A DNA stretch of 64,000 bases from Streptomyces sp. P9-A2 (GCF_036634175.1 NZ_JAZIFX010000001.1:3658001-3722000), one strand, 5' to 3'; shown: positions 24,212 to 44,556, counted from the stretch's first letter. Made by a program: numbers and translations. Notes: generated by a model from the letters alone, not told the origin.

Positions 24212-25480
24212 CTACGCGTCCGCCGGCTGTGCGGCCACCTTGTCGGTCGGCTCCGTCGGTGTCCTGGGCGGAGTGCGGACGGCGACGAAGCCCAGTGCCG
24301 CCGCGGCCAGGCCGATCACACCGAGGATCGGCCAGACGTCGTGGCCGAGCCGGACGAACAGCAGGCCGCCGAGGACCGGGCCGATGGCGGTGCCGAGCGC
24401 GTGCATGAACTGGAAGGCGCCGATGTAGCGGCTGCGCAGATGCGCCGGGCCCGCCGTCGCCGGGTGGGCGAAGACCGCGGGGCCGCCGATGACCTCACCG
24501 ATCGTCCACACCAGGGTGGCGCCCATGATCACGGCGGCGCCCATCGGCATGCCGTACAGCGCCACGCCCACGCCGACCAGGCCGAAGGAGACGCCCACCG
24601 TGATCTTCGTCCGCCACTGCTGGGTCACCTTGGTGAGCGGGAGCTCGAAGGCGATCACCATGAAACCGTTGAGGGAGACCGCGGCCGTGTACCAGAACAG
24701 GTCGAGGTCGTGGGCCTCCACGTCCAGCGGGAGCGTCGAGAGGTACTGCACGTAGATGATCGCGTTGAGCAGGGTGGCCGTCAGGAACAGCACGTACCGG
24801 CGGTCGCGGAGCATCGCCCTGTACCCCCCTGCCGTGCCCCCCTCCTCCTCGGGGGCCTCCTCCACCGCCTCCGCGGACCTGCGGGGCAGGGCGAGGGCCG
24901 CGACGACGGCGTAGGCCAGCGCGATCGCCGCCTCGCCCCAGAACAGCAGGGTGTAGCTCTCCCCGTCGAGGTGGTAGAGCCCGAGGCCGACCATGGGCGC
25001 CGCCATGGCCCCCACGTTCAGGCACCACCGGTACATGCCGAAGACGACGACCTGGGAGCTGCCCGTGGTGAGCCCGGACAGCAGGGAGGCCGCGGCCGGC
25101 CGGTAGAGCTGGGCCATGAGGCTGGCCAGGAACACGGCCGCGACGAGGGTCGGGTAGTTGGGCAGGTAGAGCAGCGCCGCGGTGAGGACCGCGGTGCCGC
25201 CCATGCCCACGACCGTGGCGTTGCGGGCCCCGAGGCGGTCGGCGAGGGTACCGCCGAGCAGGACACCGGCCACGGCGCCGGCTCCGTAGCCGCCCAGCGC
25301 GTAGGCCGCCTCGCTCTCGGAGTAGCCGCGGTAGGTCAGGTAGAGCACGATGAACACATTGAGGAATCCGCCGAGTTTGCTCAGCAGCACACCCGCGAGG
25401 ATCGTCTTGACCGCGACCGACGAATCCCTGAACGTGGCCCAGATCGCCGCGTTCTCGTCCTTCTTCTCCTCAGTGGCCAT
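24212..25480 (-). CDS. MFS exporter of the hydrazine-type cluster
   Basis: A 422-residue major-facilitator transporter with 12 predicted helices. The loop between helices 2 and 3 has the MFS A-motif form GGTLADRLGARNATVVG. It is the last gene of the cluster's long minus-strand operon; its start overlaps the ATP-grasp gene by 11 bp, so translation is coupled. By position it should export the product or confer self-resistance. No substrate can be read from the sequence. The ATG at 25480 gives a short charged tail (MATEEKKDENAAIWATFRDSS) before helix 1. Confidence 0.85.
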   Translation of the reverse strand: MATEEKKDENAAIWATFRDSSVAVKTILAGVLLSKLGGFLNVFIVLYLTYRGYSESEAAYALGGYGAGAVAGVLLGGTLADRLGARNATVVGMGGTAVLTAALLYLPNYPTLVAAVFLASLMAQLYRPAAASLLSGLTTGSSQVVVFGMYRWCLNVGAMAAPMVGLGLYHLDGESYTLLFWGEAAIALAYAVVAALALPRRSAEAVEEAPEEEGGTAGGYRAMLRDRRYVLFLTATLLNAIIYVQYLSTLPLDVEAHDLDLFWYTAAVSLNGFMVIAFELPLTKVTQQWRTKITVGVSFGLVGVGVALYGMPMGAAVIMGATLVWTIGEVIGGPAVFAHPATAGPAHLRSRYIGAFQFMHALGTAIGPVLGGLLFVRLGHDVWPILGVIGLAAAALGFVAVRTPPRTPTEPTDKVAAQPADA

Positions 25481-26849
25481 GCGCGTGCACCTCGTCTCCC
25501 GCACGGTCGGCGTCCGGGGCGTCCGGGGCTTCCCGATCGTCCCGGGCGCCGCGTACGTCCAGTGCCGATTCGGCGGCGTCCAGGGCTGCCCCGCACGCCT
25601 CGACGGAGTCGCCGGTGGCGATCGCGAAGGCGATCCGCCCCCACACCGTGCCCTTCGGCGGCGGCGAGACCACGGCACCGGGCCGGGCCACGGCCACCAC
25701 CTGCTCGACCGCGTCGGGAAGCTCGTCCTCGCGGAACGCGACGGATTCGATCCGGGTGTCGTCGTGGTCGACGTAGAAGAAGCGGATGCCCGCGACCCGG
25801 TGGTGGGCCGGGGTCGTGGCGGGGGCGATGCCGCAGGCGGCGCGCGCCGCGGCGAGTCCCGGGTCGATGCCCGTGGCCAGCACGCCCAGATACGGGATCA
25901 TGTCGCCGCCGAGCCGGCCGTTCACCTCGATCAGGCGCGGGCCGTCGGTGGTCAGCATGAATTCGCTGTGGGTCCAGCCGTCCCGGAAACCCAGCGCGGT
26001 GTGGGTGTCCTGGAGGGCGTCCAGCAGCCGCGGGTCGGTGAGCAGCGGATCGTCGCCGTCCACGAAGTGGCCGGTCTCCTCCGCGTACGGCGGGTAGCCC
26101 ACGACCTTGCGGCCGACGAACAGCGGGGTCACCACGCCGTCCCGGACGACCGCGTCGACACTGATCTCCTCGCCGGTCACCAGCTCCTCGACGAGCACCG
26201 GCTGATCGGTGCTGAAGGGCAGCGGATCGGGGTCGGGACCCTGCGCCCCGGCGGTGAACGCGAACTTCTCCGCGAGCTGTACGGCGTCGTCGACGCGGAC
26301 GACGCCGAGGCTGGCCCCGAGTCCGCGCGGTTTGAGGATCGCGGGGTAGCCGATCCGGTCGGCGGCGGCCAGTGCCTCCTCCAGCGTCCGGACCGGTATG
26401 GAGCGGGGCTGCGCCACGCCTGCGGCGTCCAGGGCCTCGCGGGTCTGGCCCTTGTCGCGCAGCCGCCAGATCACGTCCGGCGCCCCGTTGCGCAGCCCGA
26501 GCGCCTCGGCCACATAGGAGGCGGCGTGGATGCGGCCCTCGTCCCAGCACAGGACGCCGGCGACGGGTGTGGCCGCGTGCACCTCACGGGCGGCGTCGGC
26601 CATCGCCGGGCCGTCCAGGGTGGTGGGCAGCACCGTCCAGCCGGAGATGTACTCCTTCTCCCAGGTGGGTTCGTCCACATGGAAGAGGTGGATGTCGAAC
26701 TCGCCGCGAATGGAACGCAGCAGATACTCACGGTACGTCCGCATGCCCGTGGCCACCACGAGCAACAGCGGCCGCTGCCCTTGCACCGCCTGACCTTGCA
26801 CCGCCTGACCTTGCACCGTCTGTCCTTGCACCGTCTGCACTGTCCTCAT
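25470..26849 (-). CDS. ATP-grasp carboxylate-amine ligase 2
   Basis: A 459-residue ATP-grasp enzyme. The nucleotide site is YPAILKPRGLGASLGVVRV near residue 165 and VLVEELVTGEEISVDAVV near residue 215, and the metal site is LIEVNGRLGGDMIPY near residue 310. Such enzymes make an acyl phosphate and join it to an amine, as in dipeptide synthesis. A short perfect repeat, VQGQ(T/A) four times, lies at residues 7-26 (15-bp DNA repeats at 26782-26840) before the first domain. The ATG at 26849 has AGGTGAC in front. Substrates are unknown; with the second ligase at 31.5 kb it suggests two amide or hydrazide bonds. Confidence 0.87.
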   Translation of the reverse strand: MRTVQTVQGQTVQGQAVQGQAVQGQRPLLLVVATGMRTYREYLLRSIRGEFDIHLFHVDEPTWEKEYISGWTVLPTTLDGPAMADAAREVHAATPVAGVLCWDEGRIHAASYVAEALGLRNGAPDVIWRLRDKGQTREALDAAGVAQPRSIPVRTLEEALAAADRIGYPAILKPRGLGASLGVVRVDDAVQLAEKFAFTAGAQGPDPDPLPFSTDQPVLVEELVTGEEISVDAVVRDGVVTPLFVGRKVVGYPPYAEETGHFVDGDDPLLTDPRLLDALQDTHTALGFRDGWTHSEFMLTTDGPRLIEVNGRLGGDMIPYLGVLATGIDPGLAAARAACGIAPATTPAHHRVAGIRFFYVDHDDTRIESVAFREDELPDAVEQVVAVARPGAVVSPPPKGTVWGRIAFAIATGDSVEACGAALDAAESALDVRGARDDREAPDAPDADRAGDEVHAHGH

Positions 26850-26970
26850 GTCACCTTTTCTTTCCAGGAGTTGGGGTGGCCGAGCGCGCACAGGGGTGGA
26901 CGGGCCGGCCTCACGGTAGTGCCGGATTCGGGGAAGGAATCCGGAGCGTCGGAAATTCGGTGCGCATGCG

Positions 26971-28299
26971 TCAGGAATTCGACTCCACCCCCGGGCCACC
27001 GGCCGTGACCCGCTCCCGCAGCCGTTCCTCCGCGGTGACGGGCATGCGGCGTACGGCGAGACGCATCAGCGGCGCGGCCATCACGGAGGTCACGATCGCC
27101 ACCAGGACGACGATCGTGTACATCTCGGCGGTGAGGACCCCGAGCCGCAGCCCGACCATCGCGATGATCACCCCGATCACCCCGCGGGCGTTCATCCCCG
27201 CGCCGAGCGCGAGTCCCTCCCAGTGCCCGAGCCGGCCCGCCCTGGCCCCCGCGTACACGCCGGCGTACTTGCCGGCGACGGCGACGAACAGCACGAGCAG
27301 CGCCGACCCGGCGACCTCGGGCCTGACCAGCGCCGTCAGGTCGATACGCAGACCCGCGGTGGCGAAGAACAGCGGGGCGAGGACGGTGACGGCGACCACC
27401 CGCAGCGGGGCCGCCCGCTCGCGGTCGAACTCCGCGCAGGAGCCGATCAGGACACCGACGAGGAAGGCTCCGATGACCGCCTCCATGTGGAGCGCGTGAC
27501 CGGCCGCGGCGCCCAGGAGGATCAGCACGGTGCACACGGCGGGCACCGAGTCGCCGCCGCCGGAGCGTGCCGACCACCGCAGTGCGCGGCGCACCAGCGG
27601 CCCGCCCACGAACCGGGCGCAGGCGAGGAAGGCGGCCAGGGACGCCACGGACCACAGGACGTCCGGACCGTGCACGCCGGTGGTGGCCATCGCCGAGACG
27701 ACGGACAGCAGGAGCCAGCCCGCGAGGTCGTCCACCAGGGACGCGCCGATGGTCAGCTGCCCGATGTCGCGGTGCAGCAGCCCCATGTCGAGCAGGGTCC
27801 TGGCGATCACCGGCAGCGCGCTGACGCAGAGCGCGACGCCGGTGAACAGGGCGAAGACAGTGCGGTCCACTCCGTCGACGAGCAGGGTGGCCGGGATCGC
27901 CAGGGCGGCGGCCGCCCCGCAGACGAGGGGCACCACGAGTCCGCCGGCGCTGACCAGGAGAGCGGCCTTCCCCTTGCGGCGCACCAGCCCGAGGTCGACG
28001 CCCATGCCCGTGACGCCGACCAGCAGCAGCACACCGAGTTGTCCCACCGCGTCGAGCAGGTGCATCGGGCCCGGCCGCTGGGGCAGCAGCCAGGCCGCGA
28101 GGCCGGGGGCCAGCGGGGCCAGCAGCGACGGCCCCAGCAGCACCCCCGCGCACAGCTCGCCGGCGACCGCGGGCATGCCCAGCCGCTGGGCCAGCCGGCC
28201 CAGCAGCACGGCCGTACCGAGCAGCACACCGATCTGGAGCAGGAACATCAGCAGGTCGTGCGCGGCCAGGGGAGCCACCGGGGATGCGGACAGGGACAC
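26971..28299 (-). CDS. Kef/CPA2-type cation:proton antiporter
   Basis: A 442-residue membrane protein with 12-13 helices of the monovalent cation:proton antiporter 2 family. Typical pieces are LQIGVLLGTAVLLGRLAQRLGMPAVAGELCAGVLLGP, the conserved SLVDDLAGWLLL with the charged Asp pair in the membrane, and AGMNARGVIGVI. Such transporters occur in several antibiotic clusters and may couple export or pH balance. The GTG lies one base after the stop of the binding-protein homologue, so it is in the same operon. Confidence 0.85.
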   Translation of the reverse strand: MSLSASPVAPLAAHDLLMFLLQIGVLLGTAVLLGRLAQRLGMPAVAGELCAGVLLGPSLLAPLAPGLAAWLLPQRPGPMHLLDAVGQLGVLLLVGVTGMGVDLGLVRRKGKAALLVSAGGLVVPLVCGAAAALAIPATLLVDGVDRTVFALFTGVALCVSALPVIARTLLDMGLLHRDIGQLTIGASLVDDLAGWLLLSVVSAMATTGVHGPDVLWSVASLAAFLACARFVGGPLVRRALRWSARSGGGDSVPAVCTVLILLGAAAGHALHMEAVIGAFLVGVLIGSCAEFDRERAAPLRVVAVTVLAPLFFATAGLRIDLTALVRPEVAGSALLVLFVAVAGKYAGVYAGARAGRLGHWEGLALGAGMNARGVIGVIIAMVGLRLGVLTAEMYTIVVLVAIVTSVMAAPLMRLAVRRMPVTAEERLRERVTAGGPGVESNS

Positions 28300-28300
28300 G

Positions 28301-30124
28301 TCACACGTCCCCGCGGTAGTACCAGTTCTCGGGGTTGATCATCCCGAACGGGTTCACCGGCCCGAACCCCCCGATCTCGTGGGCCACTTCGAAGAGCCGG
28401 ATGGGGAAGTTCGGGGTGAAGACGACCGGTACCTGCTCCGCCACGAAGTCCTGGTAGGCGTAGAGGTCCTCCAGATCGTCGGAGGTGACGGACGCCTCGA
28501 TGAGCCGGTCGGCCCTGGGGTCGCTGTAGTGGCCGAAGTTGCCGCCCGCGTCCGTCCGGAAAAGGATCTCGCCGCTGGGGTAGTGGTAGGCCCAGCCGCC
28601 GTTCCAGCAGGTCAGCTCCCACAGGCAGTCCGGCCCTGCGGCGCAGGGCCCGTCCTCGGCGACGAGCACCGAGCCGTACACCTCCTCCATGCGCAGCTCG
28701 ATTCCGGCGGCCGCGGCGTCCTTGCGGTACTTCTCCATCAGCCGGGTCAGTGCCGGGCGCCCCTCCACATAGCGCAGCGAGAGACTCAGCTTCGTGCCCG
28801 CCGGTATGCCCTCGCCCGCCTGGCCGGACCCGGTGCCGGGGTTCACGCAGACGGCCGGTGTGGTGCTGGTGTCCCATCCGTTGGCGGCCAGGAGCGCACG
28901 GGCACGGTCGATGTCGAAGGGCAGTGGCCAGGCCCCCTCGCGCTGTCGCGGGGAGACGAGGTCGGTCGCCGGGATCATCGGGACGGGGCCGTTCTGCCGG
29001 TAGGCGTAGCCCTGGTAGATGTCGCGTACGGCGGAGTCCTGGTCGAGCGTGCTCTGCAGCGCCTGCCGGAAGTAGGTCTGCCGGAAGATCTTCCCGGCCA
29101 CCGTGGGGTTGTTGTAGTTGAGGCAGAAGTAGCGGATGCAGAAGGCGACCTGCGGTATCAGGGTGTAGTGCTCGGCCAGCGGATTGGGTCCGCCCACGGT
29201 GGGGTCGGTGGCCGGCTCGGAGGCGAAGCTCAGCGGCAGGTAGCCGACCTGGATGCCGCCCTCGGCGTGCGGTCCGGCCTTGAGCAGTTCGTACTCCTCG
29301 CCGTCCGAGAACGTCGGCACCTGGCGGAACTCGTCCAGATAGGGCTTGTCGGGCCCTGAGTAGTGCACGTTGGGCACGAAGGTGACCAGACCCTCGAGCG
29401 TGTAGCTCTTCAGCCGCCAGGGGCCGCTGACCACGCTCCAGACGGGGCTGCCGGCCCACCGGGTGCGGTGCTTGTTGCCCTCGTCGACGATGTCGCCCTG
29501 CTCCGCCATCAGGTAGTCGTAGACGGCGGGCACGTCGGCCAGGCCGCCCGACGCGTCGGCGGGTCCCTCGGCGGTACGGTCCCAGGCCCTGGGAAGCGGG
29601 GTGATGGTGCTGAGCTGGTTCATCAGCACCCACTTCTTCGAGTAGGCCTTGTCGAAGGTGAAGTAGACGGTGTCCTCGGCGAGTTTGCCGTACGAGGTGA
29701 GGTTGTCCGGGAAGTATCCGGGCACGTACTCGCCGTACCGGTCGCCCTTGACCTTCATCAGGTTCACCCAGAACAGCACGTTGTCCGCGCACAGGGTCTC
29801 GCCGTTGGACCACTTCCACGGCTTGATCCTCACCGTGACGGTCAGCCCGTCGTCGCTCCACCGCGGGGGTTCGCCGATGCTCTGGTCGTAGTCCACGTCC
29901 GGCGTCCCGCGGCTGCCGAAGTAGTACAGCGGCCGGTACATCAGCATCTGGAACTCGTAGATGTTGCGGGTGCCCATCCGCTCGGCCGGCGTGAACGGGA
30001 AGATCACCGCGGGCGGGAACCCGGGGGCGCACGCCCAGGTCACCGTGCCGCCCTTCCGGGGGACGGACGACCGGACGGGCTCCGGCGCGGGCGACGGGGT
30101 GGGCGACGGGGTGGGCGGCTCCAT
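28301..30124 (-). CDS. Family 5 solute-binding protein homologue without signal peptide
   Basis: A 607-residue protein with the complete SBP_bac_5 fold of oligopeptide-binding proteins (RKGGTVTWACAP, YRPLYYFGS, LTVTVRIKPWKWSNGETLCADNVLFW, YFCLNYNNPTVAGKIFRQTYFRQALQ, SGEILFRTDAGGNFGHYSDPRADRLI). These are normally lipoproteins feeding an ABC importer. Here the N-terminus is MEPPTPSPTPSPAPEPVRSS: no hydrophobic helix and no lipobox, and no ABC permease or ATPase gene lies in the cluster. The start is fixed by a one-base overlap with the upstream stop (TGATG). It may work in the cytoplasm, binding a peptide-like intermediate. That role is inference. Confidence 0.82.
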   Translation of the reverse strand: MEPPTPSPTPSPAPEPVRSSVPRKGGTVTWACAPGFPPAVIFPFTPAERMGTRNIYEFQMLMYRPLYYFGSRGTPDVDYDQSIGEPPRWSDDGLTVTVRIKPWKWSNGETLCADNVLFWVNLMKVKGDRYGEYVPGYFPDNLTSYGKLAEDTVYFTFDKAYSKKWVLMNQLSTITPLPRAWDRTAEGPADASGGLADVPAVYDYLMAEQGDIVDEGNKHRTRWAGSPVWSVVSGPWRLKSYTLEGLVTFVPNVHYSGPDKPYLDEFRQVPTFSDGEEYELLKAGPHAEGGIQVGYLPLSFASEPATDPTVGGPNPLAEHYTLIPQVAFCIRYFCLNYNNPTVAGKIFRQTYFRQALQSTLDQDSAVRDIYQGYAYRQNGPVPMIPATDLVSPRQREGAWPLPFDIDRARALLAANGWDTSTTPAVCVNPGTGSGQAGEGIPAGTKLSLSLRYVEGRPALTRLMEKYRKDAAAAGIELRMEEVYGSVLVAEDGPCAAGPDCLWELTCWNGGWAYHYPSGEILFRTDAGGNFGHYSDPRADRLIEASVTSDDLEDLYAYQDFVAEQVPVVFTPNFPIRLFEVAHEIGGFGPVNPFGMINPENWYYRGDV

Positions 30125-30450
30125 CACTTGACCTCCTTCAGATACGAGACGCCCCGTGCCGCGCGGGCCCCGTAGCGCTCCCACTCCTCGCGCAGGTCCA
30201 CTCCGCCGTCCTCCCGGATCTCCGGTGTGCTGCGGCAACGCCCGGACACGACCTCGCCGTCGTCCAGGACCATGGAGTAGGCGAAGTGCAGCGAGCCGTC
30301 GGGGGCGCAGACGCCGGTCAGGGAGCCGCGCCGGGCCCGGCCGCCGGAGAAGGTGCCCCACAGCAGGTTGCCGTCCTGCCGGTAGACCGCCGTACGGCCC
30401 TGGGCCTCCGCCTCGGCGGGGCGGAACCGGCGTCCGTCATAATCGATCAT
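30124..30450 (-). CDS. Small beta-rich protein, 108 aa
   Basis: A short protein with a repeated strand pattern (RTAVYRQDGNLLWGTFSGGRARRGSLTGVCAPDGSLHFAYSMVLDDGEVVSGRCRSTPEI, then LREEWERYG). It resembles a family of about 110-residue proteins with inconsistent database names, some called N-acetylglutamate synthase without proof, probably with an avidin- or lipocalin-like barrel. Its ATG overlaps the stop of the DDAH-like gene by 4 bp (ATGA). It may bind a small ligand; no catalytic residues stand out. Confidence 0.7.
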   Translation of the reverse strand: MIDYDGRRFRPAEAEAQGRTAVYRQDGNLLWGTFSGGRARRGSLTGVCAPDGSLHFAYSMVLDDGEVVSGRCRSTPEIREDGGVDLREEWERYGARAARGVSYLKEVK

Positions 30451-31328
30451 GCGCCGGCCCCCGGCACCCGGTCACGGATCTCGAGCGTGCAGCACTTGGA
30501 GCTTCCGCCCGACTTCAGCAGCTCGGACAGGTCCACGCCGATCGGCACGAAGCCGCGGCTCCAGAGCCGGTCGACGAGGTGGGTGGCCTGCTCGGGCAGC
30601 AGCACGTGCCGGCCGTCCGAGACCGCGTTCAGCCCGAACACCGCCGCGTCGTCCTCGGTCGCCTCGATCGCGTCCGGGTACAGCTCGCGCAGGGTCCGGC
30701 GACTGTCGGCGGTGAAGGCCGCCGGGTAGTACATGATCTCCTCGTGGTCGAGCACGGCCAGCGCGGTGTCGAGGTGGTAGAAGCGCGGGTCGACCAGTTC
30801 CAGCGTCACCACCGGGCGGCCCAGGACACGTTCGGCCTCCGTGTGCGAGCGCCGGTCGGTACGGAAGCCGGTGCCGGCCAGGATCCTGTCGCCCGTGACG
30901 AGGTAGTCGCCCTCGCCCTCGTTGATGTGGACGGCGTCGTGGACCTCGTAGCCGTGCGCGCGGAACCAGTCGGCGTAGGCCGGGCCCTCGTCGGCGCGCT
31001 GCGGGTGACGGAACCGGGCAGCCAGCACCGTGCCGTCGAGGACGGTGGCGCCGTTGGCCGCGAAGACCATGTCGGGCAGGCCGGGGACCGGGTCGATCAG
31101 CTCGACCTGATGGCCGAGGCCCAGGTAGAGGCTGCGCAGCCGTTCCCACTGGGCGACGGCGAGCGCGGGGTCGGTGGGCTTGGCCGGCTCCATCCAGGGG
31201 TTGATGGAGTAGACGACGTCGAAGTGGACCGGTGAGCACATCAGATAGCGCCGGGGCCGCACCCCGCGTACCCGCCGGCCGCTCGTGGCCGCGGTGGGGC
31301 GGGGTGCGGACATGGTGTCTTGCTGCAC
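30447..31328 (-). CDS. Arginine-deiminase/DDAH-superfamily hydrolase
   Basis: A 293-residue enzyme with the guanidino-group-modifying fold. The catalytic His is in RFYHLDTAL near residue 170 and the nucleophilic Cys in GGSSKCCTLE near residue 278, with the substrate Asp region in LPDMVFAANGATVL. Family members hydrolyse arginine, dimethylarginine or similar guanidines, or move amidino groups. In this cluster it may make citrulline or ornithine, or trim a guanidine on an intermediate. I chose GTG at 31328 because AAGGAG lies 8 bases ahead; an ATG at 31313 is possible. Confidence 0.83.
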   Translation of the reverse strand: MQQDTMSAPRPTAATSGRRVRGVRPRRYLMCSPVHFDVVYSINPWMEPAKPTDPALAVAQWERLRSLYLGLGHQVELIDPVPGLPDMVFAANGATVLDGTVLAARFRHPQRADEGPAYADWFRAHGYEVHDAVHINEGEGDYLVTGDRILAGTGFRTDRRSHTEAERVLGRPVVTLELVDPRFYHLDTALAVLDHEEIMYYPAAFTADSRRTLRELYPDAIEATEDDAAVFGLNAVSDGRHVLLPEQATHLVDRLWSRGFVPIGVDLSELLKSGGSSKCCTLEIRDRVPGAGA

Positions 31329-36245: not shown

Positions 36246-36518
36246 TCACGGACGATGCTGATCACCGGCCCGGACTTTCTCGATCAGTGCGACCATTTCG
36301 GCGACGGTGTGGGCGTCGTGGAAGGAGCGCAGGTCGAGGCCGACGGCGAACCGCTTTTCCAGCCGCAGCAGCGCTTCCATCGAATTCATGCTGTCCCAGC
36401 CGAGCGCGGCGAGGGCCGTGTCCGGCGGGACGTCGGCGGGGTCGGCGCCCAGCACGTCGGCGATGATGTCGGTCACCGTCTCCTCGATCGAAACCGGATC
36501 GTTCATGGGGGGATTCAT
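36246..36518 (-). CDS. Acyl carrier protein
   Basis: A 90-residue carrier protein. The phosphopantetheine Ser lies in LGWDSMNSMEALLRLEKRF near residue 43, a slightly altered form of the usual DSL motif (DSM). Helices 1 to 4 are complete. It lies 19 bp after the FkbH-type gene, which in known pathways loads a glyceryl group from 1,3-bisphosphoglycerate onto such an ACP. Two starts are possible: ATG at 36518 sits almost on the GGAAGGA site, ATG at 36506 is 12 bases from it. Confidence 0.9.
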   Translation of the reverse strand: MNPPMNDPVSIEETVTDIIADVLGADPADVPPDTALAALGWDSMNSMEALLRLEKRFAVGLDLRSFHDAHTVAEMVALIEKVRAGDQHRP

Positions 36519-36537: not shown

Positions 36538-38433
36538 CTAGTTCCGGCCGTTCAGTGCGATCCATTCCGGTGCGGTCCGTGCCGCACCGGCCGCGTCGAG
36601 GGTGAAGAACCGGGTGTCGTCCGCGGCCGTTTCCCCGGACGAGGCGGCCGGGACCGGGGTGAATCCGGCACCGGTCCAGAAATCCGCGGCCACGCCGTTT
36701 CGGTCGGAGCGCCGGAAACGGCCTTCGAGCGTGCCGACGCCGGCTTTCACCGCCTGTCCGGCGAGGTGTGCGACGGCCGCCCGCTCCACGCCGCGGCTGA
36801 GCACCCGGCAGCTCAGGACGAAGTTGAGGACCCGCCACACGTCGGGGGTGCGCTGCACCCACAGGGCGCCGACGACTCCCTCGTCGCCGAAGCGGTCGGT
36901 CACCGACACGGACAGCACCAGATGGCCGGCGTCCTCGCTCATCCGCAGGGTGGCCGCCTCGTCGTACCGGATCCCGGTCAGGTTGAACTGGTTGGTCCGG
37001 GCGGCGAGCTGGGCGATCCGGCCGATCGTGTACCCGGTCGCGGGCGTCACCTCGACGGCGAGGTCCAGGGCGCGCAGGAAGTCCTCCGAGGAATCGAACC
37101 CGGACGAGAAGTCCCCGCGCAGCGCGCGGCCGCGGTACAGCTCGGGTCGCTCCCGGTCGGTGTCGGTAAGCGCCAGGACGTCGAACCAGCCGTCCCGGAG
37201 CAGCGAGTCCACCAGGTGGGCGGGGTCGCCGGCCGCGGAGACCACCGCGACCTCCGGCAGTTCGTCCTCGACCTGCGCGCGCTCGAAGTCGGAGTCGTCC
37301 ATGAAGACGAACGACCCGGTCGACAGTGACAGCGCCTCGGCGGCCCGGCGCAGATTGCCCGCCTTGGCCGACCAGTCGACCATCCGCGCGGAGAACGCGT
37401 CGGGCCGCAGCACCACGTCCGGATGCCCGGCGAGGACCCGCTCCACCTCGTCCCCGTCGTTCTTGCTGGCCAGGACCAGGACGACGCCCTGCTCCCGCAG
37501 CCGTGCCACGGTGCGCTGCAACTCCGTGTAGCAGTTGCCCGGGTACAGGCCGCCCAACTGGACGCCCTGGGCGCCGACCTCCCCGAGCACGCCGCCCCAC
37601 AGGGTGTTGTCCAGGTCGAGGGCCAGAACCTTGCGGGACAGCCCCGCCCGCGCCTGGGCGACCCGGCGCACCAGCCGGGCCAGCAGCAGCAGGGCGTCGT
37701 CGCCGTAGGCCAGATCGCCGTACCGGTGCAGCCGTACGTCGCACGCCCGCACCGGTGCCTCGGCCAGCTCGCCGACGAGGTCGACGGCGACCACCTGGGC
37801 GTGTTCCTCCGCGAGGCCGAGCAGCGCCGCGTTGAGCCGGTACCAGGCCCGGACCACCTGGGACCGGGCCCGCACGCTGACGATCCCGTTGCGTACCTGT
37901 GCGGGCAGCGGGACGGTGTGCACGACCACGGTGGCGGCCGTCCGGCCGAGGGCGCCGGCCACCAGGGTGCGGAACTCCTCCAGCCGCGCCTCGACGTACT
38001 TCTCCAGCCCGCCCGGCTCCGCCGCGTTCCAGTCGCCCGGCAGGAAGTACCCGGCGTCCATCAGGAGCGTGACCAGGCCGGGATCGTCACCGACTCCCGC
38101 GCTCTCACCGTCGCCGATGAACGATCCGGTGGCCAGGGTCATGTCGAAGGTGCCGTAGTCCGCGACGTGCAGGACGGGCAGGAGCCCGGCGCCCACCAAC
38201 TGGGCGCGCAGCAGCGGCTCGAACGGGCCGACGGTGCCGGTCGCCAGTACGGCCACCGCGACTTCGCGGGGCCGTTCCCCGTCCACGGCCAGGGTCTTCA
38301 GGATCCGGCCGGCCTGCCGGGCCACGGCCGGGTCGTCACTCTGCAGCAGGACCCGGCGGGTGCGGGGACCGGGCATACGCCGTTCCCGTACGGCAGCGCG
38401 CAGGGCGGCCTTCGGGGTCTCGCTCTCACTCAC
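36538..38433 (-). CDS. FkbH-type HAD glyceryl-transferase/phosphatase
   Basis: A 631-residue protein of the FkbH family. The N-terminal 260 residues form an SGNH-like domain; residues about 262-410 are a HAD phosphatase core with LALDLDNTLWGGVLGE, LVLASKND and FVFMDDSDFERAQV; the C-terminal 150 residues look like a GNAT domain (LVLSVSVTDRFGDEGVVGALWV). Known members take 1,3-bisphosphoglycerate, remove phosphate and load glycerate on an ACP, which later becomes methoxymalonyl, tetronate or glyceryl units. No dehydrogenase pair for methoxymalonyl-ACP is nearby, so an unmodified glyceryl unit is more likely. GTG start with GGAAGG 10 bases ahead. Confidence 0.87.
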   Translation of the reverse strand: MSESETPKAALRAAVRERRMPGPRTRRVLLQSDDPAVARQAGRILKTLAVDGERPREVAVAVLATGTVGPFEPLLRAQLVGAGLLPVLHVADYGTFDMTLATGSFIGDGESAGVGDDPGLVTLLMDAGYFLPGDWNAAEPGGLEKYVEARLEEFRTLVAGALGRTAATVVVHTVPLPAQVRNGIVSVRARSQVVRAWYRLNAALLGLAEEHAQVVAVDLVGELAEAPVRACDVRLHRYGDLAYGDDALLLLARLVRRVAQARAGLSRKVLALDLDNTLWGGVLGEVGAQGVQLGGLYPGNCYTELQRTVARLREQGVVLVLASKNDGDEVERVLAGHPDVVLRPDAFSARMVDWSAKAGNLRRAAEALSLSTGSFVFMDDSDFERAQVEDELPEVAVVSAAGDPAHLVDSLLRDGWFDVLALTDTDRERPELYRGRALRGDFSSGFDSSEDFLRALDLAVEVTPATGYTIGRIAQLAARTNQFNLTGIRYDEAATLRMSEDAGHLVLSVSVTDRFGDEGVVGALWVQRTPDVWRVLNFVLSCRVLSRGVERAAVAHLAGQAVKAGVGTLEGRFRRSDRNGVAADFWTGAGFTPVPAASSGETAADDTRFFTLDAAGAARTAPEWIALNGRN

Positions 38434-38457: not shown

Positions 38458-39492
38458 TCAGGCCCGGACGAGAGAGCAGTACCAGCGCATCCCGATGGAG
38501 ATCCCGGTCAGCGCGACCAGGTCGCCGGGAGCGACGACCCCCTGCTCGATCAGCTCGCCGAGCGCGGTGAGCTGGTCGGCGGAGCCCATGTGCCCGTGGA
38601 CCTTGGCCCGTTCGTAGCTGGTGCGTTCCAGCGGGATGCCGAGCGGTCCGGCGATGTCGGCGATGCCGTCCGGGTCGTTGATGTAGATCAGGTGCGTCAC
38701 CTCGCCGCGCCCGACCCCGGCCCGCTCGCACGCACCGTCGAGGGCGTCGACGATGCGGGTGACGGCCGCCTCGCCGAACTCACGCAGCCGGGCGGGGTCC
38801 CGCCGGAAGTGCTCCTGCACCCGCACGTGACCGGGGTCCGCCGTCCGGCTCGACCACCCCTCGGGGGGCAGCGGGGCCACCGCGCCGCCGTAGTCGGTAC
38901 GGAACCAGTCGCACAGGTCCGGGACGGTGAACTGCTCGGTGGACAGCCAGGCGTTGCGCTCGTGGCCGCGCCGCAGGACCGTGGCCACGGCGCCGTCGCT
39001 GTGCACCGCGTTGTTGACGGTCATCCGGTTGCGGTGGAATTCGCTGACCCGGTTCACCGCGACGAACAGCACGGTGTCGATCTCCGGCTGCACGGCGAGG
39101 ACGCCGGCCACGATGCCCAGTCCGGTGACGCCCGAGGCGCAGCCCTCGTTCAGCAGCAGGGTCTGACGCTTCTCCATGCCCAGGGCCCGGCCCAGCGCCG
39201 CCGACCCGTCCCAGTGCGGGTACTCGGGGTGCTCGGAGGTGGCCAGCACCAGCAGGTCGATGTCGTCGGCGTCGACCGAGGTACGGGCGAGGGCGTCGCG
39301 CGCGGCCTCGGCCGCCAGATCGGTCGTGGTGATCTCGTCGGGGGCCCGGTGAAAGGTCTGGTAGCCCCACTGGAGAACACGTTCCGGGTCGGGGACATAT
39401 GTTCCCGCCACTTCTTCGACCTTCTGGTCGGCACCAAAGGCGTAACCGAAACCAGTAATTCCGAAACCATACGGAAGATCCGCCATGGACAT
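38458..39492 (-). CDS. Atypical KAS III-like acyltransferase
   Basis: A 344-residue thiolase-fold protein of the KAS III group. The nucleophile lies in LLNEGCASGVTGLGIVAGVL near residue 117. The usual HQAN-type His motif is replaced by YINDPDGIADIAG, and the GN(T/S) Asn motif by HGHMGSADQL, so the Cys-His-Asn triad for decarboxylative condensation is not complete. It may instead transfer the ACP-bound glyceryl group to an amine, hydrazine or hydroxyl. Start: ATG at 39492 fits the family N-terminus; a TTG at 39555 with a perfect GGAGG 7 bases ahead would add a basic 21-residue tail. Confidence 0.82.
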   Translation of the reverse strand: MSMADLPYGFGITGFGYAFGADQKVEEVAGTYVPDPERVLQWGYQTFHRAPDEITTTDLAAEAARDALARTSVDADDIDLLVLATSEHPEYPHWDGSAALGRALGMEKRQTLLLNEGCASGVTGLGIVAGVLAVQPEIDTVLFVAVNRVSEFHRNRMTVNNAVHSDGAVATVLRRGHERNAWLSTEQFTVPDLCDWFRTDYGGAVAPLPPEGWSSRTADPGHVRVQEHFRRDPARLREFGEAAVTRIVDALDGACERAGVGRGEVTHLIYINDPDGIADIAGPLGIPLERTSYERAKVHGHMGSADQLTALGELIEQGVVAPGDLVALTGISIGMRWYCSLVRA

Positions 39493-39705: not shown

Positions 39706-40848
39706 TCACTCCAGCAATGCGGCGGCTGCCTTCCTGCTCGCGAAGACCACGGTTTTGGCGGCGCCTCCGCTGCCGCCGGTGAAGGTGTACAGCCCCGGTC
39801 CGAGGGACCGCAGTTCCAGGCCTCCCGGATCGTGGTAACAGTCGCAGGACGCGACGGTGCGCACGACGGTGACGGTGACACCGAAGACCTGCCGTACACG
39901 CTCGGCGAGCCGCTCCGCGGTCTCCGTGTCCGGTGTCACCGCGTCGGGGTCGACGTCCCACCGGTCGCACGGGATGCCGAGCAGGAAGGTGCCGTCACCC
40001 CAGGGCCGGCCGTAGAGCCCGGAGTTCTCGTCGACGAAGGGCACGAGCCCGCCCAGCACCGCCCCGCCCGGCGACACCCCGTCCGGCGACGCCCGGCACA
40101 GGCTGTACTGGATGTGCTTGGTGCGCAGTCCCGCGTCCGGTAGCCCGCCGCGGGCCAGCAGCCCCGGTGTCCAGGCGCCCGTCGCGACGACGACCCGGTC
40201 GTAGCGCAGGGTGCGGCCGTCCGCCGTGCGCACCGTCGGGTCCGGGGTGACCGCGTCGACCGCCGCGGCGTGCACGGTGGCCCCCGCCCCGGCCGCCGCC
40301 CGCAGGGCCGCGCCGCGCAGCCGGTGCGGGGAGATGTATCCGGCGTACCGCTCCACCACGGCGACGGAGCCGGGCGGTAGTTCCCGGAACGGGAAGGCCC
40401 GTAGTATCCCGTCCCGGCCGACCACCTCGGCCGAGCCCGGCAGCCGGACGTCGACGACGTCCACCGGCGCCCGGACGTCGGCGTCGCCGGACAGGACGTA
40501 CAGCGAGCCGGTCTCCCGGTACCCGGACCACTCGCGCAACCGGTCGCTGCCCCTGATCTCGGCGAGGCTCTCCGCCGCCGGCCCGGCCGCGGCCGCCGTG
40601 GGCTCGAACCCCCGGACCAGCCCGCCGGATACCCTCGACGCGTCCGTCCGCCCCACGGCGTTCCCGGCACTCCCGGCGCCCCCGCCGCCTTCCGTGCCCA
40701 CGGGACCCTCACCGCCCGCGGCACCCCCGGTGAACAGATCCACCGAAGCCGCGCCCCGCGCCCGCACGGTCCGCCAGGCGAGCAGCGTGCCCGCGATCCC
40801 GCCGCCGACGATCGCGATCCGCGGGCCGCCCCCGGCCACCCCCCTCAC
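39706..40848 (-). CDS. DAO-family FAD oxidase, likely hydrazine-intermediate cleaving
   Basis: A 380-residue flavoprotein of the glycine-oxidase/D-amino-acid-oxidase group. The FAD motif is IAIVGGGIAGTLLAW near residue 10; the barrel part RYDRVVVATGAWTPGLL and the C-terminal LGPGLYTFTGGSGGAAKTV are typical. A Gly-rich loop of about 25 residues follows the first helix. In the s56-p1 pathway a similar oxidase cleaves N6-(carboxymethylamino)lysine to release hydrazinoacetic acid. The same role is inferred here. The GTG start overlaps the M1-like stop by 4 bp. Confidence 0.82.
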   Translation of the reverse strand: MRGVAGGGPRIAIVGGGIAGTLLAWRTVRARGAASVDLFTGGAAGGEGPVGTEGGGGAGSAGNAVGRTDASRVSGGLVRGFEPTAAAAGPAAESLAEIRGSDRLREWSGYRETGSLYVLSGDADVRAPVDVVDVRLPGSAEVVGRDGILRAFPFRELPPGSVAVVERYAGYISPHRLRGAALRAAAGAGATVHAAAVDAVTPDPTVRTADGRTLRYDRVVVATGAWTPGLLARGGLPDAGLRTKHIQYSLCRASPDGVSPGGAVLGGLVPFVDENSGLYGRPWGDGTFLLGIPCDRWDVDPDAVTPDTETAERLAERVRQVFGVTVTVVRTVASCDCYHDPGGLELRSLGPGLYTFTGGSGGAAKTVVFASRKAAAALLE

Positions 40849-43328
40849 TTCCCGCCCGCCCGTACCGCGACGACCCGTCGCAGGTCGTGGGTGTGGTCGG
40901 CGGCCCGGCGGCGCAGCGTCACCGGAAGTGTGTCGAGCGCGAGCATCCGCTCGGCCGCCTCGAGGGTCTCCGGGGTGGCGGCGTAACGCGGGTAGAGGAA
41001 GCGGAGCAGCTGGTCCAGCACCAGATCACCCCGGTCGCGGGCGGCGGTGGGCATGTCCGTGAAGAACCGTTCGACGTACGGCCGGGTCAGCACCGTCTGT
41101 TCGGGCTGCCAGAACCCCTCGGCCAGGGACCACAGTTCGTAGTGGGACAGATCGGCGCCGCGCATGATCGCGGTCCACGCCGCTTCCTTGGCGCCCGCCT
41201 CGGGCAGCGCCGCCCGGCACTTGGCCGCGAACTGTTCGGCGACGGCGCCCGGCCCCGCCTCCAGGGCCGCGGCGACGCCGGTGGCGTCCACGCCCCCGAG
41301 TACGGCGAGCCGGTAGCGGACGCGCCAGCTCATGTCGGTGTCGAGGACCAGCCCGGAAGGCAGTCCGTCGCCGGCCAGCCAGCCGGACAACTCCTCGGGG
41401 TCCGCGGTGAAGTCGACCAGGCCCCGGAAGAGCGTGATCATCCGCTCGTCCTCCGCACCGGTGCGGGCGAGCCGGCCACGCAGTGCCTCGGCGACCCGGG
41501 CCATCGCCTCGGGGCGCTCCGGTGGCGCGAGGAACCGGTCGGCGACGTCGTGCCGGGCCTGTTCGAGGACCTCGGCCAGGATCGACAGCTCGCTTTCCTC
41601 CCCAACCATGTCGCCGACCAGCGCCAGATGCGCGGCGGCCGGGTACGTCCCGTCCTGGACGCCGAGCAGCAGGGCACACCACACCATCGCCCGGTTCAGC
41701 GCGGACAGCCCGGGGAGCGTGCCGGGCAGCGCGGCCAGTGAGCCGGGGTCGAATCCGATCTTGGCGTAGGTGAGGTCGCCGTCGTTGAGGAGGAGGAAGG
41801 AGGGCGCGGGACGGCCCACGAGCTCGGGCAGTTCGGTGCGTTCGCCCTCGATCCGGACCCGGACGGTGGTGCTGTCGTGCGGGGAGTGGAGGCCCACGTC
41901 CATGGTGTGCGTGCGCAGCACCGGATGACTGGCGGGGGCGCCCTGCAGGACTGCGGCGGCGCTGATGCGTCCGTCGGTGACGGTGATCTCGGGGGTGAGC
42001 GTGTTCACGTTGGCCGTGTGCAGCCAGGTGTCGGCCCAGTCGGTGAGATCGGTGCCGGCCGCCTCGCTCATCGCGTCGAGGAAGTCCGCGGCGGTCGCCG
42101 TGGAGTAGGCGTGCCGGTCGAAGTAGACGCGCAGTCCGGCGCGCAGCGCCTCGTCGCCCACGTGCGCGGCGAGCTGGCGCAGCGCGGAGTGGCCCTTGAA
42201 GTACGAGATCCGGTCCAGCTCCAGCTGCACGGTGCGGACGTCGGGGCCCTCGATGCCGACCGGGTGCGTGGAGGGACGCTGGTCGGGCAGATACGCCTGG
42301 CCCTTGCGACGGGCGGCGAACGTCGTGGGCGGTCCGGGAAACCGGGTGACCTCGCTGGTGACGCGGTGCGCCATGTAGTCGGCGAGCGACTGGCCCAGCC
42401 ACAGGTCGTTCCACCATGTGTGGGTCACGAGTCCGGCCAGCCACAGCAGGGAGATGCCGTGGGCGAGGACGACGGCCCTGGTCTCGCGTTCGCTGTCGGT
42501 GGCGGCCGAGCTGAAGAGGTACTGCTCGCGCAGCAGTACGCAGCCGGGGTGGTCGAGCGAGAGCACGCTGAACTCGGGCACGAAGACCTGGTCGAGTTTG
42601 GCGAACGGATGCCCCACTCCGAAGAGTTCGGCGTAGGCGTCCAGACACTGGGCGGTGATCTCGAAGACCTCGTCGACGTCGGCCTTCAGGGCGTCCGCGA
42701 GCGAGGCCCGGCAGTGCAGCCCGAGGGGGATGCCGTGGTGCTCGGTCCGGAAGGAGGCATACGGCCCGGCGACGAGCGCGGTGAGGTAGGTGGCCAGGGC
42801 CGGCGACTCTGTCAGCCTCCAGCGGCCCGGCCCGGTCCGTACCGCTTCGCTGTTCCCCAGGACCTGCCAGGTCTCGGGCACCCGCAGCTCGAACCGGTAC
42901 GGGGCCTTCAGGTCGGGCTGGTCGAAGCAGGCGAAGACGCGCGGCGCGTTGTCGAGGTAGACGAAGGAATAGACGTACGTCTCGCCGTCGGCGGGATCGA
43001 CATAGCGGTGGAGCCCTTCGCATTCCTGCGAATAACCCATGTCGGCCACCACGACGACTTCGTTTTCCGCAGCGAGTCCGGTAAGCGGGAACCTGCCGTC
43101 ACGCAACGCCGCGACGTCGAGTCCGCGGCCGTTCAGTGTGATCGAGCGGAGTTCCTCCGGATCGATGTCGACGAAGGTTTCCGCACCGGATTCACGGGCG
43201 TCGAAGCGGATGGTCGTCGTCGAGCAGAAAGTTTCCGGTCCGGTGGTCAGATCGAGCTCGACGTCATAGGAACGGACCAGGAGCAGGGCACCACGTCCCC
43301 CTGCTTCCTCCCGGGTCAGGCTTGGCAT
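40845..43328 (-). CDS. M1 aminopeptidase N homologue with a lost zinc site
   Basis: An 827-residue protein that follows actinobacterial PepN from end to end, with no signal peptide. The catalytic motifs are gone: the GAMEN loop reads VPEFSVLSLDH (250-260), HEXXH reads HGISL (290-294) and the third ligand motif NESFA reads GQSLA (312-316). The framework around them is intact (WWNDLWL, ADYMAHRV) and the Tyr of YFKG remains. It cannot bind zinc in the usual way and should be inactive as a peptidase. It is translationally coupled to the oxidase gene. A new catalytic role or a binding and chaperone role is possible. Start ATG has AAAGGA ahead. Confidence 0.9.
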   Translation of the reverse strand: MPSLTREEAGGRGALLLVRSYDVELDLTTGPETFCSTTTIRFDARESGAETFVDIDPEELRSITLNGRGLDVAALRDGRFPLTGLAAENEVVVVADMGYSQECEGLHRYVDPADGETYVYSFVYLDNAPRVFACFDQPDLKAPYRFELRVPETWQVLGNSEAVRTGPGRWRLTESPALATYLTALVAGPYASFRTEHHGIPLGLHCRASLADALKADVDEVFEITAQCLDAYAELFGVGHPFAKLDQVFVPEFSVLSLDHPGCVLLREQYLFSSAATDSERETRAVVLAHGISLLWLAGLVTHTWWNDLWLGQSLADYMAHRVTSEVTRFPGPPTTFAARRKGQAYLPDQRPSTHPVGIEGPDVRTVQLELDRISYFKGHSALRQLAAHVGDEALRAGLRVYFDRHAYSTATAADFLDAMSEAAGTDLTDWADTWLHTANVNTLTPEITVTDGRISAAAVLQGAPASHPVLRTHTMDVGLHSPHDSTTVRVRIEGERTELPELVGRPAPSFLLLNDGDLTYAKIGFDPGSLAALPGTLPGLSALNRAMVWCALLLGVQDGTYPAAAHLALVGDMVGEESELSILAEVLEQARHDVADRFLAPPERPEAMARVAEALRGRLARTGAEDERMITLFRGLVDFTADPEELSGWLAGDGLPSGLVLDTDMSWRVRYRLAVLGGVDATGVAAALEAGPGAVAEQFAAKCRAALPEAGAKEAAWTAIMRGADLSHYELWSLAEGFWQPEQTVLTRPYVERFFTDMPTAARDRGDLVLDQLLRFLYPRYAATPETLEAAERMLALDTLPVTLRRRAADHTHDLRRVVAVRAGGK

Positions 43329-43413
43329 ACGAATTTCCTTTCGCGAGGGGCCAAAGGATCGTCGTACGACGGGAAGCGAGCGTCAAGGAGAGCAAGAAGC
43401 TAAATGAGGGAAG

Positions 43414-43464
43414 GGGAATGCCGGTGACCGAGAACCTGCTCGCCCCCCGGTCACCGGCATTTCC
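43414..43464 (-). terminator. Hairpin between the regulator and the M1-like gene
   Basis: The arms 43414-43430 and 43448-43464 pair over 17 bp with one mismatch (core AATGCCGGTGACCG/CGGTCACCGGCATT). It lies 13 bp after the regulator stop at 43477, so the regulator is a separate transcript from the biosynthetic genes. Confidence 0.85.
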
Positions 43465-43476
43465 TTCGAACGCGGA

Positions 43477-44556
43477 TCAGGCCTCCTGCAACTGCCCTTC
43501 GACCTCTTGCGCTATGTACATCCAGATCTCCCCGCAGGAACGCGCCACGGCCGCGATCTCATTCACCCAGTGCGGCGGAACGCCCTTGACCCCCGCCACC
43601 ACGTCCTGTGTGCTGATCGCGTGCATGTCGTACCAGCGGAACAGGATCCTGCCCGCCTCCGAGTACCTCAGCAGGGGGTCCTGCAGGAGCTTGGCCCGCA
43701 GCCTCGACCAGTCGGCGGTGCCGAGGACGGCCGGCTGCGCACCGTCCGCCGGCCGCACACCGCCCACGTGGTCGGCGGGCGGGGCCGACCGGTTCTCTCC
43801 GCCCGGCCCGTCATCCGGTCCGTCACCCGGTCCGGCCAGACGGAGCTTGGGCGGGAGCGGGTCGGCGCCCCGCTGGACCCGCTGCCGGACGTCGCGCGCG
43901 GTGGCGACCGACACCCCGGCCTGACGTGCCACCTCCCGCAGCGGCATCTCCGGGTAGGCCGTGACCACCTCGCTGGCGCGCAGTCGCCCCTGGCTGTAGT
44001 TGACCGGCCGGTAGCGGCCGTCCCTGCCCAAACGCACGTTCAACTGCGCCGGCTGCACAGTTGAACCGTCCACGACCACCTTGCGCAGTGCGGCCACGGT
44101 CCTCGGCGCGAGCCCGGTCACCGCGGCGACCGCCCGGTCCGACCAGAGGGGCTGCGCGGAGAGCACCCGGCGCACGGCCGCCTCACGGTCCGCCCGCGAC
44201 AGAGGGAGACCGTGCGTCACGTTCTCCTGCACCGCCACGAGGAAAGCCAGTCCCTCGGGGCCGTCGAAGAACCGGACGTCAATCGCCTCCCTGCCTTTCA
44301 TCCGCGCCGCCAGAAGACGATGCGATCCATCGATCACCCGCATCGACCGGCGGTGCACGATAATCGGCGGCAGCGAGTGTTCGACCTCCGCGAGTGCCTG
44401 GGCGTGCGCAGGGTCCTCTCCGTCCAAACGAGGAGAGTCACCGGGCTTTATCGACGCTATCGGAACGGATTCGACCCGACTCAGTTCCACCGCTAATCCG
44501 CGATGCCCCCCAAAGGGTCCACCAGAACTTTCGTCACCATGCTCTCGAGTTTCCAT
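43477..44556 (-). CDS. StrR/ParB-like cluster activator
   Basis: A 359-residue regulator. Residues about 30-115 form a ParB/Srx-like domain (VESVPIASIKPGDSPR, IIVHRRSMRVIDGSHRLLAARMKGREAIDVRFF), followed by helix-turn-helix motifs (LWSDRAVAAVTGLAPRTVAALRK and MPLREVARQAGVSVATARDVRQRV). This is the layout of StrR, NovG and KasT, the pathway activators of antibiotic clusters. Codon 21 is TTA (44494-44496), so translation should depend on the bldA tRNA. A perfect StrR-type palindrome lies inside the coding region. The ATG at 44556 is the most family-like start, but the ribosome site is poor and a longer frame opens at 44664. Confidence 0.85.
   Translation of the reverse strand: METREHGDESSGGPFGGHRGLAVELSRVESVPIASIKPGDSPRLDGEDPAHAQALAEVEHSLPPIIVHRRSMRVIDGSHRLLAARMKGREAIDVRFFDGPEGLAFLVAVQENVTHGLPLSRADREAAVRRVLSAQPLWSDRAVAAVTGLAPRTVAALRKVVVDGSTVQPAQLNVRLGRDGRYRPVNYSQGRLRASEVVTAYPEMPLREVARQAGVSVATARDVRQRVQRGADPLPPKLRLAGPGDGPDDGPGGENRSAPPADHVGGVRPADGAQPAVLGTADWSRLRAKLLQDPLLRYSEAGRILFRWYDMHAISTQDVVAGVKGVPPHWVNEIAAVARSCGEIWMYIAQEVEGQLQEA
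44038..44066. promoter_or_regulatory. StrR-type operator inside the regulator gene
   Basis: GTTCAACTG-N11-CAGTTGAAC is a perfect 9-11-9 palindrome. The known StrR-family consensus is GTTCGACTG-N11-CAGTCGAAC, so only one base per arm differs and the spacing is exact. It lies within the regulator's own coding sequence and suggests autoregulation. Confidence 0.8.

Follow-up and report, generated by a model that had tools for sequence, protein, structure and literature searches.

A putative hydrazine-type biosynthetic cluster of Streptomyces sp. P9-A2 combining an N-N bond-forming core with amino-acid ligases, a glycerate module and a signal-less binding protein

The window analysed here, a stretch of 64,000 nucleotides from Streptomyces sp. 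P9-A2 (GCF_036634175.1 NZ_JAZIFX010000001.1:3658001-3722000; positions 3658001-3722000 of contig C1 in a genome of 8.39 Mb), contains a compact core operon on the minus strand (window positions 24212-44664), which encodes an N-N bond-forming core of the MetRS/cupin hydrazine synthetase type together with ATP-grasp ligases, a glycerate module and a signal-less family-5 solute-binding protein (SBP5). The cluster probably (we estimate a probability of about 0.6) makes a hydrazine-containing, peptide-like secreted metabolite through a flavin N-hydroxylase (NMO), a MetRS-like protein, a cupin and a DAO-family oxidase, with the participation of ligases, glyceryl transfer and SBP5-linked handling; most likely, the product would be a small peptide that contains a hydrazine and bears a glyceryl moiety. 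The hydrazine assignment is well supported by sequence comparisons, and the pathway appears to be a variant of the known MetRS/cupin kind; the glyceryl group and the peptide portion of its product are putative. An earlier sequence-only reading proposed an undescribed hydrazine-type pathway at 24212..44556, and each of the genes it named was confirmed as an intact reading frame with GC bias, all on the same strand.

The N-N core, whose type is well supported, comprises the NMO, the two halves of the predicted hydrazine synthetase and the oxidase, all encoded on the minus strand. The NMO (34894..36189) matches PF13434 (E 9e-88). The zinc-cupin half (34377..34826; PF07883, E 3e-15) is similar to RHS1 (5UQP; 44.6 bits) and scores 188 bits against 4RD7; RHS1 is a cupin whose zinc-cupin N-N activity was tested, according to the accessible part of PMC8664883. 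The MetRS-like half (32764..34380; PF09334, E 5e-64, 217 bits) carries the zinc-knuckle cysteines C147, C150, C159 and C162 and a HIGH-type motif, which are invariant in nine aligned sequences. The DAO-family flavin oxidase (39706..40848) matches PF01266 (E 6.9e-24, scored on a shorter start). NMO, cupin and MetRS-like protein are shared with the s56-p1, triacsin, azaserine, pyrazomycin, dob and albofungin pathways, and a DAO-family oxidase is also found in those of s56-p1, triacsin and azaserine, which make hydrazinoacetic acid (HAA). Unlike these pathways, the window block has no acyl-ligase, N-acyltransferase or hydrazone oxidase, and it adds an L-amino-acid ligase, a DDAH-like enzyme, FkbH, the signal-less SBP5, an avidin-fold protein and an inactivated M1 aminopeptidase (pseudo-M1).

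A MetRS-like match (E 1e-80 or better) was found in 15 of 246 genomes of the same genus; in this and the other scans of these genomes (SBP5, KASIII, M1), 4 to 8 candidates were scored per genome. The scan of named genomes with the nine-sequence alignment gave 60 loci, and the cluster type is thus a broad family, not a one-off, with representatives in Streptomyces, Saccharothrix, Actinomadura, Streptosporangium, Winogradskya and others, sharing a core with swappable modules. In the tree of 57 MetRS-like rows, the window falls in a clade of 26 rows (support 100/100); L065, L068, L083 and L084 stand outside the tree due to broken or missing gene calls, and identity together with gene order placed L065 and L068 in the window clade. 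The counts below refer to loci with full flanks (at least 21 kb), i.e., 19 of 27 clade loci and 30 of 33 others, the shorter ones (8 and 3) being omitted; a gene is counted as absent if no copy passing the set identity thresholds lies within 10 kb of the match. All 19 clade loci keep NMO, cupin, MetRS, ATP-grasp ligase 2, a 108-aa protein and SBP5, which places the gene set beyond chance; ATP-grasp ligase 1 and the DAO-family oxidase occur in 18, the DDAH-like enzyme in 17, the CPA2-type antiporter in 15, the MFS exporter in 13 and the M1-like protein in 8. The M1 and CPA2 genes were found in none of the 30 full-flank loci outside the clade (50% identity). The linkage of the known N-N set, from which the sequence-only reading started, is therefore conserved in these 19 clade loci, save for one locus in the case of the oxidase.

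The sequence itself shows the identity and conservation of the genes, their motifs, one fusion and, by prediction, the fold of the 108-aa protein; we infer every reaction of the proposed pathway by homology. The flavin enzyme would N-hydroxylate a diamino acid (lysine or ornithine), and the MetRS-like protein would adenylate a second amino acid and esterify the N-OH group with it; the zinc cupin would then rearrange the ester to form the N-N bond, and the DAO oxidase would cleave the N-N product down to a hydrazino acid. The hydrazine unit may be linked with amino acids by one of the ATP-grasp ligases or by both. In the subtype represented by the window, FkbH is predicted to load glyceryl from 1,3-bisphosphoglycerate onto the acyl carrier protein (ACP), and the KASIII-fold enzyme would transfer it from there to the product, at either a hydroxyl or a nitrogen. 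Arginine or an intermediate bearing a guanidino group is the probable substrate of the DDAH-like enzyme. SBP5, together with the avidin-fold protein, probably acts as an intracellular binder of an intermediate or of the peptide-like product, either to hand it over or to protect the producer, before the MFS and CPA2 carriers would export the product. Such a combination of N-N bond formation with L-amino-acid ligases and probable glyceryl transfer would represent a route to new hydrazine peptides.

The probably cytosolic pair of SBP5 (28301..30127, minus strand; PF00496, E 4.1e-32) and the avidin-fold protein is the one really odd element of the pathway. As the sequence-only reading had noticed, SBP5 has no signal peptide; it also has no lipobox, judging the N-terminus by eye, and the same applies to 28 relatives inspected by eye and by hydropathy, a set that leaves out L033, L055 and L080, where the called start lies inside the fold. 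The protein belongs to the same family as the binding proteins of ABC oligopeptide importers (AppA) and has the same length, but it lacks their export signals, and Pfam searches found no permease or ATPase genes that could partner it among the 22 proteins of the block. Six outside relatives that were examined are lipoproteins, and complete importer operons (Pfam) adjoin two of them, L098 and L101. SBP5 is the best conserved of the 19 cluster proteins compared (mean identity to the window 79.8% in 17 of 27 clade loci); at an identity of at least 60%, it is found in 8 of the 246 genomes, all of them among the 15 with the MetRS-like gene, and it occurs in 10/30 loci outside the clade. Why a normally extracellular family of binding proteins became the best conserved protein inside the pathway is a sharp question.

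The 108-aa protein (30124..30450, minus strand), which the sequence-only reading had not named, is a conserved part of the core, found also in 16 of the 30 loci outside the clade. Its predicted structure has an avidin barrel fold; the sequence identity to avidins is 8-16% among the matches listed, and no PDB sequence match was found up to E 1. In one homologue (P0107), the avidin-fold protein is fused to SBP5.

The M1 aminopeptidase-like protein (40845..43328, minus strand, 827 aa) is homologous to PepN/M1 aminopeptidases over its full length (TIGR02412, 688 bits, scored on a shorter start), but its zinc site is broken: HEXXH-18-E is replaced by HGISL-18-Q, so that the catalytic Glu is gone, as are two zinc ligands out of three, and the first His is retained, in agreement with its earlier designation as a pseudo-peptidase. 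In an alignment of 14 family members, the motif is lost in 10, including the window, and kept in four (L047, L056, L059 and L073). Matches to the protein at E 1e-220 come from 3 of the 246 genomes, all three carrying the cluster, and the source genome encodes three further full-length M1 proteins (38-43% identity to the cluster M1). The common loss of the motif, the restriction to cluster-bearing genomes and the presence of other M1 proteins suggest that this is probably a conserved non-peptidase and not a recent wreck. FkbH is encoded in the loci of 9 of the 10 pseudo-M1 copies and in none of the four with an intact motif, although the loci are few and the sequences related; the tenth pseudo-M1 copy (L045) sits on a 12-kb piece. 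L073, a member of the window clade with an intact M1 motif, has no FkbH in its flanks, and L080 has FkbH and no M1 within the flanks.

Perhaps, and this suggestion is a tentative one, an SBP5 of the oligopeptide-importer type and an avidin-fold barrel have been recruited into the cytosol, where they would carry or sequester a reactive hydrazine peptide, and the dead M1 of the glyceryl subtype serves as a further binding or acceptor scaffold. If so, free small intermediates would be held on binding proteins instead of carrier-protein thioesters. It is also conceivable, with rather less than even odds, that the pair is a cytosolic immunity device, which sequesters the finished product and takes no part in synthesis. 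The peptide-binding fold, the loss of the export signal and the lack of ABC partner genes in the cluster are compatible with this, as are the lipoprotein nature of the six outside relatives, two of them next to complete importer operons, and the fused pair in P0107. However, the two genes occupy a central place in the core operon, adjoining the ligase and DDAH genes, and L052 and L070 hold the other core genes with no SBP5 in their flanks; immunity there would need another route.

Peptide formation in the proposed pathway is attributed to the ATP-grasp ligases. Ligase 2 (31451..32767, minus strand; PF13535, E 1.2e-16) carries both domains of L-amino-acid ligases, ATP-grasp (61.1 bits) and LAL_C2 (54 bits), above the cut-offs, and its best solved relative is the L-amino acid ligase BL00235. 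Ligase 1 (25470..26786, minus strand; PF13535, E 3.3e-12) is more divergent, its LAL_C2 score of 23.3 bits being below the cut-off of 29.4. Compared with the L-amino-acid ligases BL00235 and BacD, the window copy differs in its location inside a hydrazine cluster.

The DDAH-like enzyme (30447..31328, minus strand) bears on the identity of the hydroxylated diamine, which the sequence-only reading had assumed to be lysine, giving N6-hydroxylysine. The NMO comparison fits both diamines: its closest solved relative is the ornithine enzyme PvdA (257.3 bits), ahead by a hair of the lysine enzyme MbtG (255.5 bits). Both the diamine and its partner amino acid are therefore named here only as candidates. 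One alternative, otherwise the same as the pathway outlined above, is that the DDAH-like enzyme, encoded within the core operon, converts arginine locally into ornithine, which would then serve as the diamine; we consider this unlikely. In alignment with the ArgZ-type protein Sll1336, the site residues N43, N92, E137, H185 and C279 are kept in 42/42 copies, and we take their roles to be those of the ArgZ-type site (N, N, E, H and C). At the same time, the enzyme passes the cut-off of the dimethylargininase model NF045659, which is of the Mycobacterium tuberculosis type (449.6 bits versus 300), and fails that of the arginine-dihydrolase model NF052232 (202.8 versus 450); the cyanobacterial arginine dihydrolases Sll1336/Alr4995 match it with about 160 bits. 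The source genome also has a second DDAH-like gene (56% identity), and the DDAH gene occurs in 17 of 30 loci outside the clade; it was not found within the flanks of L033 and L034, which counts against on-the-spot ornithine supply and also against the pathway proposed above. The named pathways, where the diamine is plainly named in the available part of the review of hydrazine synthetases and their pathways (PMC11705231), use lysine or diaminobutyric acid. Pyridazomycin was considered as the product, since ornithine is its proposed precursor (PMC7347517, accessible part); no gene cluster for comparison was found in the open literature, and this guess is not claimed.

The glycerate module consists of FkbH (36538..38433; TIGR01686, 288 bits versus a cut-off of 147, scored on a shorter start; motif DLDNTLWGG), the ACP (36246..36506; PF00550, E 5e-15; WDS site conserved in the alignment) and the KASIII-fold acyltransferase-like enzyme (38458..39486), all on the minus strand. 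FkbH enzymes transfer glyceryl from 1,3-bisphosphoglycerate to an ACP, and in tetronates a FabH-like enzyme then uses it, as stated in the accessible text of PMC7489565. The combination of FkbH, a stand-alone ACP and a FabH-like enzyme is common to the window and the glycerate-utilisation module of tetromadurin (Mad7/Mad8/Mad16), Mad16 being likened by description only; in contrast to tetronate clusters, Pfam scans of the 22 block proteins detected no polyketide synthase and no Agg4/Agg5-type acyltransferase or dehydratase. The closest solved relatives of the KASIII protein are, in order, 9Z38, ChlB3 and DpsC, with the more distant CerJ in ninth place. ChlB3 has the triad Cys113, His296 and Asp301, and the available part of PMC9573744 describes its function as acyl transfer and its sites as CerJ-like; the triad of DpsC is Ser-His-His. 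The Cys, the His and the Asp five residues further on are kept in 15/15 sequences of the KASIII family. Because this triad is of the ChlB3 type, the module is read as one for glyceryl transfer, and acyl transfer by the KASIII protein seems more likely than a Claisen condensation; its predicted substrate, unlike those of ChlB3 and CerJ, would be glyceryl-ACP. Seven KASIII homologues from genomes outside the MetRS-bearing set were compared (L090-L096): in L092, the gene accompanies FkbH and ACP in a non-ribosomal peptide synthetase cluster; in L090 and L094, it adjoins genes for an AMP-ligase and a carrier protein (the carrier identified by eye); L091 resembles L090, and L093 and L095 resemble L094. 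No window homologue besides KASIII was found in L096. The neighbours in L090-L095 support ACP-dependent acyl transfer as the job of the subfamily.

Both FkbH and KASIII are present in 9 of the 19 clade loci and in none of the 30 loci outside the clade (50% identity), and all 14 FkbH-bearing rows of the MetRS tree fall inside the window clade. On this tree the FkbH label requires five changes, at least four of them forced by supported branches (the flanks end at 10 kb), and so the module was probably gained or lost repeatedly.

The proposed pathway has to be weighed against several of these and other observations. In 10 of the 19 clade loci, no glycerate module was found in the flanks, and it is thus a decoration and not part of the core; L038 and L040 have no more than a short piece resembling FkbH, and L037 has an ACP alone. 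The KASIII gene is not specific to the cluster, having a match at E 1e-40 in 18 of the 246 genomes, 14 of which are not among the 15 MetRS-bearing ones. C-C bond formation by this enzyme is possible, the tetronate-forming FabH-like enzymes standing outside the sequence comparison. The binding role of SBP5 is suggested by its fold, and the avidin-fold gene also occurs in loci with no SBP5 in the flanks (L052, L057, L060, L062, L064, L066, L070 and L071). Finally, the MetRS pocket of the window clade differs from that of the sister clades in four regions: the clade has mostly [AP]ATPT, T-x-TDD, YPW.EA and DNVYHWG..D at the motif positions, and the sister clades mostly xPPPT, SGTDD or TGTDD, NAW.EG and DNxYFWG..H. 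This difference suggests a partner amino acid other than that of the sister clades.

A different use of the same core would be an HAA pathway of the azaserine/triacsin/dob kind, in which a hydrazine loaded on a carrier protein is oxidised to give a hydrazone, perhaps even a diazo group, and the KASIII protein takes the part of an acyl shuttle like AzsD or Tri13. The cluster shares the NMO/cupin/MetRS/DAO set with these pathways and has an ACP and a KASIII-like enzyme, and the available part of PMC10445470 describes the movement of a hydrazineylideneacetyl group between carriers by Tri13 and AzsD. Nevertheless, Pfam scans of the 22 block proteins found no N-acetyltransferase (GNAT), no AMP-ligase and no hydrazone-forming oxidase of the acyl-CoA-dehydrogenase type, nor did they name a C45 peptidase, and the sole visible ACP loader of the block is FkbH, which makes an HAA-type product improbable. 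The NMO family also serves siderophores, but a hydroxamate siderophore or another N-hydroxy-amino-acid cluster devoid of N-N chemistry is highly improbable: the MetRS-like and cupin genes are linked to the NMO gene in 19/19 clade loci, and no siderophore synthetase is among the 22 block proteins scanned.

Comparison with the literature qualifies the novelty of the predicted hydrazine peptide pathway. The azaserine cluster includes the KASIII-like AzsD and the ATP-grasp protein AzsJ, whose participation the authors doubt, and that of triacsin includes Tri13 (PMC10445470, in the part available); thus, the KASIII-like and ATP-grasp parts, listed as additions in the sequence-only reading, are not new by themselves. 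The gene set as a whole found no match in the open literature: the accessible parts of the reports on dob (PMC13061610), azaserine (PMC10445470), N-nitroglycine (PMC13274452) and the heme hydrazine family (PMC12154649) describe other gene sets, and FkbH, DDAH, a signal-less SBP5 or a pseudo-M1 was not found together with a MetRS/cupin enzyme in the openly available portions of the literature. Likewise, neither a close match to a characterised cluster with a known product nor any product of this cluster family was found in the open-access literature searched, and a description in a subscription journal is possible.

The core operon is read on the minus strand from 44664 or 44301 to 24212 in the order helix-turn-helix (HTH) regulator, M1-like protein, DAO oxidase, KASIII, FkbH, ACP, NMO and cupin, followed by the MetRS-like protein, ATP-grasp ligase 2, DDAH-like enzyme, 108-aa protein, SBP5, CPA2 antiporter, ATP-grasp ligase 1 and MFS exporter. 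Overlaps of four bases (M1/DAO, cupin/MetRS, MetRS/ligase 2, DDAH/108-aa and 108-aa/SBP5) form the pattern of a co-translated operon. For M1, DAO, KASIII and FkbH, relatives back longer starts than the first gene call, and the spans given above are the start-corrected ones. The regulator (43477..44664, start uncertain, 44301 or 44664; HTH_23, E 5e-6) has an N-terminal part recognised as ParB/StrR-like by eye only. The MFS exporter (24212..25480; PF07690, E 1e-40) and the CPA2-type cation/proton antiporter (26971..28278; PF00999, E 9e-47) are also on the minus strand; the latter likely has a role in export or pH.

The cluster is wider than the interval of the sequence-only reading. In a blastn comparison with a 39.5-kb stretch of genome G207 (4740001-4779500), window positions 19498-44669 are similar (84-90%, nine pieces), and no piece lies outside these limits; the cluster therefore also takes in six further genes, whose homologues recur in the flanks of 1 to 7 of the 19 clade loci. 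On the minus strand these encode a YjbR-like protein of 118 aa (19484..19840; PF04237, 29.0 bits, just below the cut-off of 30.1; 82% in G207), a glyoxalase-fold protein of 144 aa (19837..20271; PF13669, E 1.2e-19; 4/19 clade loci), a DUF6308-like protein of 222 aa (20268..20936; PF19827, 20.1 bits, below the cut-off of 27.3; 7/19 clade loci and 13/30 others) and an amino-acid permease (21056..22348; PF13520, E 2.4e-45; 88% in G207), which adjoins the cluster in L043 and L044. On the plus strand there follow an FtrA-like DJ-1/AraC regulator (22496..23506; NF006902, 350 bits, below the cut-off of 425; 91% in G207) and a NIPSNAP-like protein (23675..24076; PF07978, 20.3 bits, below the cut-off of 22.3; 6/19 clade loci). 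YjbR-like and DUF6308-like parts are fused in L048, L049, L053 and others; the best matches of a predicted model of the fusion are YjbR-type structures, with no usable match for the second half. In G207, the regulator and NIPSNAP genes are separated by an amidohydrolase-family gene (L018 9809-11038; its L031 homologue matches PF01979 at E 9.6e-42), homologues of which adjoin the cluster in L027, L030 and others; it is missing at window 23506-23675, the best match in the source genome having 31% identity over about half the length.

The same core is also found in other architectures, described here from Pfam assignments of a single representative per family. One (L048, L049, L053 and L076) combines two DDAH genes with a YbaK-like tRNA-editing domain. 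Another (L057, L060, L062, L064, L066 and also L071) has a PEP-mutase-family protein, a berberine-bridge-type oxidase, DUF885 and a further ATP-grasp protein. A lean NMO-cupin-MetRS group (L046, L050, L054, L061 and L069) has a TauD-type oxygenase, an FAD/NAD(P)-binding protein and ATP-grasp, with no DDAH/SBP5 core in the flanks. Two Serratia loci are among the relatives. The YbaK-type aminoacyl-tRNA editing gene stands alone in L048 (17154-17657) and 10 other loci (Pfam on the homologue L025:140-643), and it might clear tRNA mischarged with the product. Nine loci, among them L057 (16515-17351), encode the PEP-mutase-family protein; none of the nine copies has the EDK motif (L075 has EDQ), so phosphonate chemistry is improbable for this gene. 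Genome G199 has a second, different MetRS-like locus, L026 (G199:C1:7948001-7968000), with two NMO genes and no cupin match in the scan.

Just beyond the conserved block of the window, IS5-type and rve-type transposase genes (45395-47733) give the right flank a mobile appearance, and a gene of the aminoglycoside/hydroxyurea kinase family APH_6_hur (18423-19316) adjoins the left border outside the block. Two coding-like open reading frames of 464 and 254 aa, with no Pfam match at E 0.001, are located at 49564-51724.

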